NCBI GenBank assembly: GCA_029861845.1
Contig: JAOTYM010000004.1
Location: 1 to 64,000, forward strand
Origin: Gammaproteobacteria bacterium
Lineage (GTDB): Bacteria > Pseudomonadota > Gammaproteobacteria > Acidiferrobacterales > SPGG2
Length of the DNA: 64,000 nucleotides
Reading direction: 5' to 3'
Of this stretch, positions 38,215-41,663 are shown in pieces. The notes under the pieces were generated by a model. That model was not told where the DNA came from and ran no database searches. It saw only the letters and a program-made list of their open reading frames with translations. The position numbers and the translations under genes are program-made. Positions within the stretch are counted from its first letter, which is position 1. Every line of letters starts with the position of its first letter.

Positions 38215-38550
38215 CTAGGTAAACGACCGGGTATCGAAGATCAGCAGGATCTTGCTTATCTTGCCATTAGAAATCTCAAATATTTGCGCCATGGGTACGC
38301 TAACACCTGGCTTAGAGAACTGATAGACCAAACACGCACACGATTCGGTTTCAAACGATCGTATCATTTCGTATTCGAAGCCCTGGGGCGGATCTGATTG
38401 TAGTGATTGTATATAGCTCTTTGGCGAATCGAACTCATCAAACGGTCCTTTGAAGGTGAACTCATCAGCCAGCAATTGGTTTAATGCGTCCATATTGCTG
38501 CCTGCGAAAACAACATCCATGTATGCTCGCGCTAGTTCAAGAGGTTTCAT
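38215..38550 (-). CDS. SnoaL/NTF2-like small protein
   Basis: A 111-residue single-domain NTF2-like protein (LARAYMDVVFAGSNMDALNQ, FTFKGPFDEFDSPKSY, VPMAQIFEISNGKISKILL). Enzymatic or binding role cannot be inferred. The ATG overlaps the stop of the upstream EEP fragment in ATGA, so translation is coupled. Confidence 0.78.
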   Translation of the reverse strand: MKPLELARAYMDVVFAGSNMDALNQLLADEFTFKGPFDEFDSPKSYIQSLQSDPPQGFEYEMIRSFETESCACLVYQFSKPGVSVPMAQIFEISNGKISKILLIFDTRSFT

Positions 38551-38882
38551 GGAAGCCGTGGTAAGTTAAGCAGCCGCGCTTCGAGAATGGGTGACTTAGA
38601 AAGCAACATATTGCCGAATTGGCGCCGATGATTTTTCGGATTTTTTGCGCCAGCGGTTTGGCTCGCGTCTACATCGAATGCCGGTCGGTATCCCCAATAG
38701 TAATCCGGTAGATGTTCAGCCAGCCGCGCCGCCTGATCCACCAGGCCTGAGCGCCGCCAGTTACATTCGACTTCCTGCAGGGCGATGATATCTGCCCTCG
38801 ACACCTCGTGGGCAATACGTTCTATATTGTATTCATCGTCTTTACCGCGGGAGAATTGGATGTTGTAAGTGACTAACCGCAT
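38547..38882 (-). pseudogene. N-terminal half of an endonuclease/exonuclease/phosphatase (EEP) protein
   Basis: About 111 residues with the start of an EEP nuclease: LVTYNIQFSRGKDD, DIIALQEVECNW (the metal-binding glutamate) and FGNMLLSKSPILEARLLNLP. Complete EEP proteins run to about 250 residues and end with a catalytic SDHxP segment, which is missing; the frame stops directly at the next gene. It therefore looks like a deletion that removed the second half and joined the rest to the NTF2-like gene. The upstream aldo/keto reductase stop and this ATG overlap (TAATG). It may still be translated. Confidence 0.75.
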
Positions 38883-39859
38883 TATTTTCCCGCGTACCAA
38901 AAACTACGCCGCCAAGCGTGTTTTCTCAGCCTGTCGATAAGATCGCTAGATAGATCGGGCGAATCAGACGCAGCGGCGTTGCTCTTGGCCTGTGCGACAC
39001 TGCGAATACCAGGGATGACGCTGCTAACCGCACCTTGAGCAAGGATGAATTTGAGTGCAACCTGCACCATGGTTTGTTCTTCGACATTGATTTGCGACTT
39101 GATCTTTTCCACCCGATCGACCGTACGCGTGAGCCGATCACCGGCGAAGTAGCTGGCGCGAAAATCGCCTTCTGGGAATGTGGTGTCCTCGCTGAACTTG
39201 CCGGTAAGCGCGCCTTCATCAAACGGTACACGCACAATCACACCGATGTTGTGTTCTTCCGCAGTTGGTAGCAGTTCGGCCGCCGGCTCTTGTTCAAAGA
39301 TGTTGTATATCAGTTGTACGACATCGACGTAGCCCTGTCGCATGAGGTCGATCACACAGTTCTGATCGTGCTCCGGGGTAGATACCCCGATGCAGCGGAT
39401 CTTGCCTTGGGCCTGTAGTTCCTTCAGCGTGTCCAAGGCCCGCGGGTGCTTATTCCAGGCCCGTGTCCATGTGTGCAGCTGCAGGATATCAATACATCCG
39501 GTGTCTAAGTTTTCCAGTCGCTCTTCGATCTTCTGCCGCAGATAATCGGCGGGATAACGTTGGTCGATATCACAATAAGGCGATGGTGGCCACGGTCCGG
39601 GGAGGGGGTGGATTTTGGTCGCCACGTAAACCCTTTCGCTGCGTGTCTTAAGCGCCCGCGCTATGACACGCTCGCTTCGACCCTTGCCGTAACCGGCGGC
39701 GGTGTCGATAAAGTTAATGCCAAGATCGATCGCCCTGTCCAACGCCGCTAGTGACTCCCGGTCTTTTTGATTACCCCAGGCACCGCCACCCAGCGCCCAA
39801 CCACCGAAACCAATCTCGGAGACTTCGAACTCAGTACGGCCCAGGCTACGGTATTTCAT
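38882..39859 (-). CDS. Aldo/keto reductase
   Basis: A 325-residue TIM-barrel NAD(P)H oxidoreductase. VSEIGFGGWALGGGAWG, NFIDTAAGYGKGRSERVIA (catalytic D and Y), VATKIHPLP (catalytic K) and QLHTWTRAW are visible, with the C-terminal segment for cofactor binding. The substrate is unknown. The start overlaps the upstream radical SAM stop by 4 bases (ATGA), so it belongs to the coupled run. Confidence 0.92.
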   Translation of the reverse strand: MKYRSLGRTEFEVSEIGFGGWALGGGAWGNQKDRESLAALDRAIDLGINFIDTAAGYGKGRSERVIARALKTRSERVYVATKIHPLPGPWPPSPYCDIDQRYPADYLRQKIEERLENLDTGCIDILQLHTWTRAWNKHPRALDTLKELQAQGKIRCIGVSTPEHDQNCVIDLMRQGYVDVVQLIYNIFEQEPAAELLPTAEEHNIGVIVRVPFDEGALTGKFSEDTTFPEGDFRASYFAGDRLTRTVDRVEKIKSQINVEEQTMVQVALKFILAQGAVSSVIPGIRSVAQAKSNAAASDSPDLSSDLIDRLRKHAWRRSFWYAGK

Positions 39860-40851
39860 AGCGTTGAACAGGAGAAGCAGATGTCCGGCGCAACATAGCG
39901 TTGCAACTCCTGTTCGCAGAATGCAATCATCTCGTCTCTAATCGGCGCTTTGTAAGACACCATACCATTGCTCGGTTCGAGCGTCGTCGCGAACAACCGC
40001 TCATCGGGGTACAATCGGAGAAGGTTGCGGTGGTAGGGCGCCGGCAAACGGAAGGCGCCGAGGGTTACCGAGTGCAGGCGTTCGGCATCGAGGCGTTGGA
40101 ACAAGTCGCTGAACAACCGTCGATAGTGGGCCTGGTAGTCTTGGTGGTAGATCATAGGATCGAAACGCAGACCTAGCCGCCACCCCTGGCGTTGCAATCG
40201 AACCATGGTATCTACTCGTTTCGCCACCGGCGGCACGTTATTTTCGAGCGCGGCCGATATCTCTTGCGGGGTAAAGCTAAAGGCGACGACGCAGTTTGGT
40301 AGCGGTTCTGTTCTGAGCAGCGACCGTACCTGGGTACTCTTGGTGCGTAGTTCGAAAAACGCGTTGCGGTAGCGTGCAAAAAGCGGTAACACGTGCTCGA
40401 CAAAACCGGTGATGGGTTCTAACGCTAGACTATCGCAGTCGTAGCCAGAGAAAAACGATATAGTTTCGCCGTTAGCTTCGCTAATCTTGGATACGATTGC
40501 GGTCTCAAAGTCTTCGTAGTTGACGAAAAGCACGTAGTGTGCAGAGCGATACATGCCTTGCAGAAAGCAATAGCGGCAATCATAGATACAGTTCAGCATG
40601 TGTGAGAAGTAGTAGTTGTGATTGTCACCGATGCCGTAACCCTCGGGTGTCTTGAGGACCATGCCGTTGTGTTTTCGCGCCAGGACGAGGGCCGGACGTC
40701 GCTTTTGTAGCCTGAAATTCTGGGCCTTGGGGTTAAATACCTCGCCGTAGCGCTCGCACTGGATCTTTACGGCATCGGCAAATTTATCGCAAATTTTCCG
40801 CGTGCGTGAGTGGTCGGCGACCTCTCGTTCGATGTATATCGTACGAATCAT
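39856..40851 (-). CDS. Spore photoproduct lyase-like radical SAM protein
   Basis: A 331-residue SPL-family radical SAM protein. The cluster cysteines are C88, C92 and C95 in NCIYDCRYCFLQG. The N-terminus IRTIYIEREVADHSRTR and ISFFSGYDCDSLALEP are SPL-type segments, and DICFSC ends the protein. Bacillus SPL repairs the thymine spore photoproduct. This organism shows no sporulation genes here, so the substrate is probably different. ATG 40851 overlaps the nucleosidase stop in ATGA; the track's TTG 40857 is less likely. Confidence 0.87.
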   Translation of the reverse strand: MIRTIYIEREVADHSRTRKICDKFADAVKIQCERYGEVFNPKAQNFRLQKRRPALVLARKHNGMVLKTPEGYGIGDNHNYYFSHMLNCIYDCRYCFLQGMYRSAHYVLFVNYEDFETAIVSKISEANGETISFFSGYDCDSLALEPITGFVEHVLPLFARYRNAFFELRTKSTQVRSLLRTEPLPNCVVAFSFTPQEISAALENNVPPVAKRVDTMVRLQRQGWRLGLRFDPMIYHQDYQAHYRRLFSDLFQRLDAERLHSVTLGAFRLPAPYHRNLLRLYPDERLFATTLEPSNGMVSYKAPIRDEMIAFCEQELQRYVAPDICFSCSTL

Positions 40852-41663
40852 GTGCAAGAGTATTCAATGGGCAAGGCGTCGAGTTCCCGATTTAAGTGAC
40901 GCAGTGCCTTGTTGGCGCTCGGCAAGGCGGCGAGCTCATCGCTCCACACCGTTTCGGCTGAACGCGCCTGCCAGTGCAACAGCAGGCGCCTGAGCTGGTG
41001 TTGTTCCGAGACCGTAAACCGCCAGTGTTTGAGAAACCGAGCGAGCTCGCGCGGATCCGATTGAAACTCGGCCAACCGGGCGGCAAGCGCTCTGAGCGTT
41101 TGTGTTAATATGTCGATCGCATCCAGTCGTTTTTCGATCAAGGCGCGTACGTTTCTGGCATTGATATCCCCGGTGGAGCTGGCAAGGTTGTCTGAAACGA
41201 CCTTGTAACAATGTACGAGCTCGGCAGTCGTGAATCGACAGGCAGTCGCATAAAAGCCAGCTGCCTCCATGTCGTAGAGCCCGTTCTTGCGGTATTTGGT
41301 CTCGGGTTCATCGACGCTAATGAGATCATCGCTAGCACAAGGGAGTTCGAACGTTAGCGGCGGATACCAGCTGCGTCCTGTGATTTGATCGGTAATCTTA
41401 TGAACAAGCACGCCATCCCCGATCGCACGTCGGCCGTGTCCGGCGATGCCGATGTTGAGCCAAGCCCTGCAGGCACGATTCCCGGTTTGCGCATGCAGGT
41501 AACCGGTCGCCGCCGCCGCCGCGACCTTGCCCATCCCGGAGACGATCAGTGCGACGTGCTCATTTTCAAAGACAGGAAACGCGCCACCGGTGCGCCGCCG
41601 TAGACCGAAGTGGTCCATGAGCGGTTTGGCTTCGGCTTGTAGGGCGACAACGAAGTGCACCAT
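40848..41663 (-). CDS. PNP/MTAN-type nucleosidase or phosphorylase with C-terminal extension
   Basis: A 271-residue protein. The first 170 residues follow the purine nucleoside phosphorylase/MTA-SAH nucleosidase fold: VALIVSGMGKVAAAAATGYL, WLNIGIAGHG, GLYDMEAAGFYATA (the family DMEA motif) and YKVVSDNLAS with the catalytic aspartate. A 70-residue extension of no known family follows. MTAN-type enzymes cleave MTA, SAH and 5'-deoxyadenosine, the last being the by-product of radical SAM enzymes. The overlap with the SPL-like gene suggests they work together. Confidence 0.78.
   Translation of the reverse strand: MVHFVVALQAEAKPLMDHFGLRRRTGGAFPVFENEHVALIVSGMGKVAAAAATGYLHAQTGNRACRAWLNIGIAGHGRRAIGDGVLVHKITDQITGRSWYPPLTFELPCASDDLISVDEPETKYRKNGLYDMEAAGFYATACRFTTAELVHCYKVVSDNLASSTGDINARNVRALIEKRLDAIDILTQTLRALAARLAEFQSDPRELARFLKHWRFTVSEQHQLRRLLLHWQARSAETVWSDELAALPSANKALRHLNRELDALPIEYSCT

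Follow-up and report, generated by a model that had tools for sequence, protein, structure and literature searches.

Comparative genomics joins a spore photoproduct lyase-like radical SAM enzyme, a nucleosidase, a glycosyltransferase and a carbonyl reductase in one functional module

A GT2-family glycosyltransferase (GT2), a nucleosidase, a radical SAM enzyme resembling spore photoproduct lyase (SPL) together with a domain termed X, and a carbonyl reductase (SDR or AKR) are shown here by comparative genomics to constitute one functional module. This four-part gene set probably makes a molecule or a modification, which goes beyond an enzyme accompanied by a clean-up helper. In the explanation favoured here, to which a probability of about 0.48 is assigned, a single pathway would adenosylate an acceptor, depurinate the product, reduce it and glycosylate it. 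We infer the adenosyl transfer, the depurination of its product, the reduction, the glycosylation and the order of these steps by analogy with known systems. Still more tentative is the fuller proposal that an SPL-fold biosynthetic module with an exchangeable X domain would in this way yield a new glycosyl-pentityl product or modification, with Gammaproteobacteria and Acidobacteriota as hosts; Fusobacteriota and apparently Firmicutes of the gut would have a version devoid of GT2.

The window (the whole 64,000-nt stretch of DNA that was analyzed) encodes the module on the reverse strand (Table 1). The original prediction described an overlapping pair of nucleosidase and radical SAM genes; both reading frames are indeed open over the extents it gave, and the TGA stop of the nucleosidase falls within the ATGA of the radical SAM start, whose ATG begins at 40851. 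Two further contacts had escaped it: the GT2 gene lies upstream, with 1 nt between its stop and the nucleosidase start, and a second ATGA (39856-39859) places the AKR start within the stop of the SPL-like gene. Among the close relatives examined the nucleosidase-SPL gap ranges from -8 to +12 nt. The AKR adjoins the module in all four tested members of the window's family (G000-G003), and in most other lineages its slot is held by an SDR, so that two unrelated carbonyl-reductase folds share one position. Downstream of the AKR, at 38547-38900, is an endonuclease/exonuclease/phosphatase-like reading frame of only 117 aa that is seemingly truncated.

Table 1. Features of the module in the window, and related loci in other genomes
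Feature	Position	Strand	Evidence or remark
GT2-family glycosyltransferase, 296 aa	41665..42555	-	PF00535 6.1e-33; first gene of the module
MTAN/futalosine-hydrolase-like nucleosidase, 271 aa, with C-terminal X domain	40848..41663	-	catalytic residues kept
X domain, putative small helical SPL-partner domain, nucleosidase residues ~200-271	40851..41066	-	hhalign; decay together with SPL gene
SPL-like radical SAM enzyme, 331 aa	39856..40851	-	PF20903 66 bits; PDB 4k9r 5.8e-9
Radical SAM CX3CX2C motif, residues 88-95	40567..40590	-	all three Cys in 113/113 surveyed proteins
Aldo-keto reductase (AKR), 325 aa	38882..39859	-	PF00248 4.1e-58
373-type SPL with ParB_N-like gene	L154-L169, L093, L094		Acidobacteriota and two Gammaproteobacteria
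SelD-like gene beside 420-aa SPL gene	L080:3379-4407, L243:703-1731, L249:888-1916, L250:2954-3982		

Co-occurrence was evaluated in 274 gammaproteobacterial genomes spread across the class, with GT2 (family A3) counted at E<=1e-60. The SPL-like gene is present in 48 of them and the nucleosidase and GT2 in 44 each. Nucleosidase and SPL occur together in 44 genomes, nucleosidase alone in 0, SPL alone in 4 and neither in 226; GT2 and SPL give the same four counts (Fisher p about 1e-46 for either pair, where genomes of the same lineage are not independent and the positives span about 30 families). When an SDR profile is used, the same 274 genomes divide into 31 with both genes, 1 with SDR alone, 17 with SPL alone and 225 with neither. 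Co-occurrence in other genomes had been set beforehand as a test, and it came out clearly in favour of the pairing, as all 44 nucleosidase-bearing genomes also carry an SPL-like gene. The neighbour count that had been proposed gives a similar picture: the nucleosidase adjoins the 331-aa type of SPL in 32 of the 36 genomes that have both, an adjacency that is more than chance. Neighbouring is likewise found for the 331-type SPL and SDR (23/23) and for the nucleosidase and GT2 (32/41), several of the non-neighbour cases being contig ends; two genomes (G303 and G152) keep the module genes although these are unlinked. As no genome of this sample has the nucleosidase without an SPL-like partner, and as the two are fused in Fusobacterium, the dedicated coupling is real.

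The four SPL-bearing genomes without a nucleosidase match comprise two (G131 and G258, with a 373-aa SPL) in which a divergent nucleosidase is fused to GT2 (each half has a Pfam match, that of the nucleosidase half falling slightly under its cut-off), one (G107) with a decayed remnant in the nucleosidase position but with X retained, and one (G115) that is 82% complete. A gut contig (L120) resembles G107 in having a remnant that lacks the catalytic residues and keeps the C-terminal X region; both remnants were recognised by eye and have no Pfam match. The second fusion of the module is the 623-aa nucleosidase-X-SPL protein of Fusobacterium vincentii, whose gene is followed by SDR. Full clusters in the order GT2, nucleosidase with X, SPL and SDR are found in Acidobacteriota (L152, L153; nearly complete in L150 and L151), and another gut contig (L119) has a nucleosidase-SPL-SDR cluster. 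GT2 was not found in Fusobacterium, in a Holophagales genome or in G303, G122, G253 and G115. Outside the window's family an AKR was seen only in G131 and G258, and there distantly; the counts leave out the SDRs near L105, L107 and L116, which are different ones. The two gut contigs (L119, MT835770; L120, MT835514) are human faeces records labelled bacteriophage, yet their gene content, including the nucleosidase-SPL-SDR cluster, is bacterial, and they are probably bacterial contigs under a wrong label; scans of viral_contigs gave no relatives. At two loci (L099:4457-4963 and L105:6258-6740) the GT2 and nucleosidase genes have between them a gene for a small protein that, judged by eye, resembles a phosphatase.

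A C-terminal extension of 70 residues had been noted as a peculiarity of the nucleosidase. The extension is present (about residues 200-271, with no convincing Pfam match), but it tracks the type of radical SAM enzyme rather than the nucleosidase that carries it. X is found on nucleosidases adjoining a 331-aa SPL; in eight genomes of the class sample the SPL is instead ~420 aa long, with an extra N-terminal domain, and the nucleosidases are ~200 aa long and have no X. In seven of these eight the nucleosidase lies beside GT2 and the reductase, and in most the SPL gene is elsewhere. In profile comparison X scores 26.2 against the N-terminal domain of the 420-type SPL (maximum of 100 column shuffles, 14.3), which in turn scores 26.6 against the C-terminal region of a ParB_N-like protein (19.6 in 60 shuffles); X against the ParB_N-like region is weaker (19.6 versus 18.0 in shuffles). 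HHalign probabilities are low (7-40%), so the sequences fall short of proof, and the three regions are likely homologous. The ParB_N-like gene lies directly upstream of a 373-type SPL gene at all 17 loci with a ParB-like reading frame, among 18 examined.

The dependence of X on SPL type was evaluated in a set of 41 genomes from the order of G209, two of which were already in the earlier sample. Where a 331-type SPL is intact the nucleosidase extends into X (27/27), and where only a 420-type SPL is present an intact X is missing (10/10), a split with p about 3e-9, uncorrected for kinship. In one genome (G772) GT2, the nucleosidase core and SDR are intact, a stop codon separates the core from X, frameshifts, stops and a deletion disrupt the 331-type SPL gene, and elsewhere the genome encodes a 420-type SPL; as judged from these lesions G772 is a snapshot of the replacement of a 331-type by a 420-type SPL. 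A fainter relic of X is seen in G768. From the rule and the decay in these two genomes it follows that X serves the radical SAM enzyme, that the two SPL types are mutually replaceable and that the nucleosidase core is retained for the GT2/reductase pathway. At the level of gene sequences X is thereby shown to belong functionally to the SPL-like enzyme and not to the nucleosidase. X would then be a partner domain required by the SPL-type enzyme, which either carries it itself or relies on a copy borne by the nucleosidase or the ParB-like protein.

With a weak match to PF01048, just below the cut-off (E 6.5e-5; 22.9 bits, cut-off 25.1), the nucleosidase is a distant member of the PNP/UDP fold. 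It has the catalytic residues of MTAN (E11, E133 and D158), which are kept in 93 of 93 family members surveyed. Its top NCBIfam match is futalosine hydrolase (TIGR03664), at 33.2 bits well under the cut-off of 124.7; the MTAN equivalog (NF004079) is lower still (18.1 bits, cut-off 169), and the HpnG model (TIGR03468) is not among its NCBIfam matches. AlphaFold models were poor (mean pLDDT 46 for the nucleosidase and 56 for the SPL-like enzyme) as there were just three sequences to align. In the futalosine pathway of menaquinone synthesis a nucleosidase (MqnB, or MTAN in Helicobacter) acts on a compound adenosylated by the radical SAM enzyme MqnE. The module resembles that pathway in the best match of its nucleosidase and differs from it in the score of that match (33 bits vs 124.7), in the absence of an MqnE-type partner and in the additional GT2 and reductase. 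Another likeness is offered by the hopanoid side chain, in which HpnH and then HpnG lead to ribosylhopane, bacteriohopanetetrol and the glycosyltransferase HpnI, so that an adenosylated product loses adenine, the resulting ribosyl aldehyde undergoes reduction and a sugar is added; the enzyme classes are the four of the module, in the order that we propose for it (PMC12583986). The radical SAM enzyme and glycosyltransferase of the module come, however, from other families, and the genome of the window encodes its own HpnG separately, for which reason the hopanoid pathway itself was rejected. Fusobacterium, which carries the module, is not known for hopanoid synthesis.

Both precedents, in which a PNP-fold nucleosidase acts on the product of radical SAM adenosylation, support adenosylation followed by depurination, and in the module a radical SAM gene is likewise genetically coupled to a PNP-fold nucleosidase. 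In the favoured pathway the SPL-like enzyme would make a 5'-deoxyadenosyl radical and couple it to an sp2 carbon of the acceptor; the nucleosidase would take adenine off the adenosylated product, leaving a reducing ribosyl end; the SDR or AKR would convert the ribosyl aldehyde to an alditol; and GT2 would attach a sugar to that alditol. Against this pathway count the lineages that lack GT2, the 17 SPL-positive genomes missed by the SDR profile, the narrow occurrence of the AKR and the low profile scores behind the homology of X, and the decay of the nucleosidase active site in G107 and L120, where SPL and X persist, would be odd if depurination were obligatory.

Such decay would be less surprising in a helper than in a pathway enzyme, and thus bears on the role that the original prediction gave to the nucleosidase, namely dedicated clean-up for its radical SAM partner: the by-product 5'-deoxyadenosine would be hydrolysed by the nucleosidase, and 5-deoxyribose reduced to 5-deoxyribitol by the SDR or AKR. 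5'-Deoxyadenosine inhibits radical SAM enzymes, further disposal routes are expected, and rats are known to carry out the reduction to 5-deoxyribitol (PMC6079011). The known salvage of 5-deoxyribose (drd genes, DHAP shunt) also handles this by-product but employs a kinase, an isomerase and an aldolase, where the module has GT2, a reductase and a dedicated radical SAM enzyme (PMC6079011). The conservation of the MTAN residues throughout the surveyed family is consistent with clean-up, as is the finding of canonical MTAN (TIGR01704) in 0 of 48 gammaproteobacterial module genomes, the search having covered module-positive genomes. Four checked module genomes (G000, G303, G089, G287) have an MTI phosphorylase in place of MTAN, and redundancy of the nucleosidase with a cellular MTAN was on these grounds dropped; the genome of the window has of this kind only MTI phosphorylase and the separate HpnG, and would thus benefit from a private nucleosidase. 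Clean-up leaves unexplained, however, why GT2 shows the same phyletic pattern, why it is fused to the nucleosidase in some genomes, and why, where SPL has moved away, the nucleosidase is still found beside GT2 and SDR. A general remover of 5'-deoxyadenosine would moreover be expected beyond this SPL, and the nucleosidase is in 0 of 226 genomes without SPL; Fusobacterium has an MTAN and retains its nucleosidase-SPL fusion regardless. Dedicated coupling, as predicted, thus stands on the 44/44 co-occurrence and the fusion, and clean-up is one of two readings of it but, given the GT2 pattern, not the better one; it is considered unlikely, though it leads the alternatives.

The radical SAM protein matches the SPL family (PF20903) well above the cut-off of 27 bits and can be aligned to spore photoproduct lyases of known structure, but is far below both NCBIfam SPL equivalogs (TIGR04070, 83 vs 400 bits; TIGR03886, 57 vs 437 bits). 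With SplB (PF20903, TIGR04070) it shares the radical SAM fold, the CX3CX2C motif and the invariant Asp and Lys columns surveyed; it differs in that Cys141 is replaced and in the company of GT2, nucleosidase, reductase and partner domain X. The Cys141 column holds Tyr, Glu, Gln or His in 112 of 113 proteins, Cys being found solely in the B. velezensis SplB control. As the Cys that returns H in true SPL is missing in 112/112, spore photoproduct repair chemistry is not expected, and the enzyme would not be a spore photoproduct lyase. In the 331-type a Cys is usual two residues past this column; the Fusobacterium/gut and 420 types are without it. Adenosyl transfer, as opposed to H abstraction, is proved by no sequence feature, which counts against the favoured pathway.

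The SPL fold invites the alternative that the enzyme acts on a DNA or tRNA pyrimidine in repair or modification, the other genes processing or decorating the base; the pathway logic may even be that of the favoured explanation with a nucleic acid as acceptor. The pairing of the 373-type relatives with the ParB_N-like protein at every locus that has one points the same way, as does the SOS regulation of SplB (COG1533) in several bacteria (PMC8565304). The absence of the catalytic Cys argues against it, and a GT2 with a reductase suits biosynthesis better than repair, so that this alternative is quite improbable. LexA boxes are not enriched upstream of 82 GT2, 92 nucleosidase and 112 SPL genes, and a DNA-repair regulon was rejected on that account; a defence system was rejected for want of a PADLOC match.

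The module nucleosidase has the MTAN (Pfs) catalytic residues noted above but differs from MTAN in its fused X, in its confinement to SPL-bearing genomes and in the region aligned to the MTAN 5' pocket, which is unlike that of MTAN and has a conserved (W/Y)-Y-P motif. These last features would fit an SPL-like enzyme acting on a small nucleoside-type molecule whose non-adenosyl N-glycosidic bond is cut by the nucleosidase, but with all surveyed MTAN catalytic residues kept an adenine leaving group is favoured, and another substrate is without positive evidence, which leaves this reading highly improbable.

No description of the module was found in open-licence PMC papers, and an earlier account elsewhere is possible. 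With the genes read as one module, the SPL-like radical SAM enzymes found in non-spore-formers gain a definite context: a pathway of four components that co-occur strictly, to which two independent fusions and natural swaps between radical SAM types add. Enzyme steps and a product are also predicted by this reading, and X would represent a new type of exchangeable domain that partners radical SAM enzymes of the SPL family. The 420- and 373-type SPL proteins (e.g. L079, L093) have extra conserved Cys residues, one and then a CC ahead of the radical SAM motif and a YLCME near the C-terminus, that are absent from the 331-type and hint at an auxiliary iron-sulfur cluster. A gene resembling SelD (selenide, water dikinase; named by eye) abuts the gene of the 420-aa SPL in four genomes that belong to a single family, possibly as mere local synteny.
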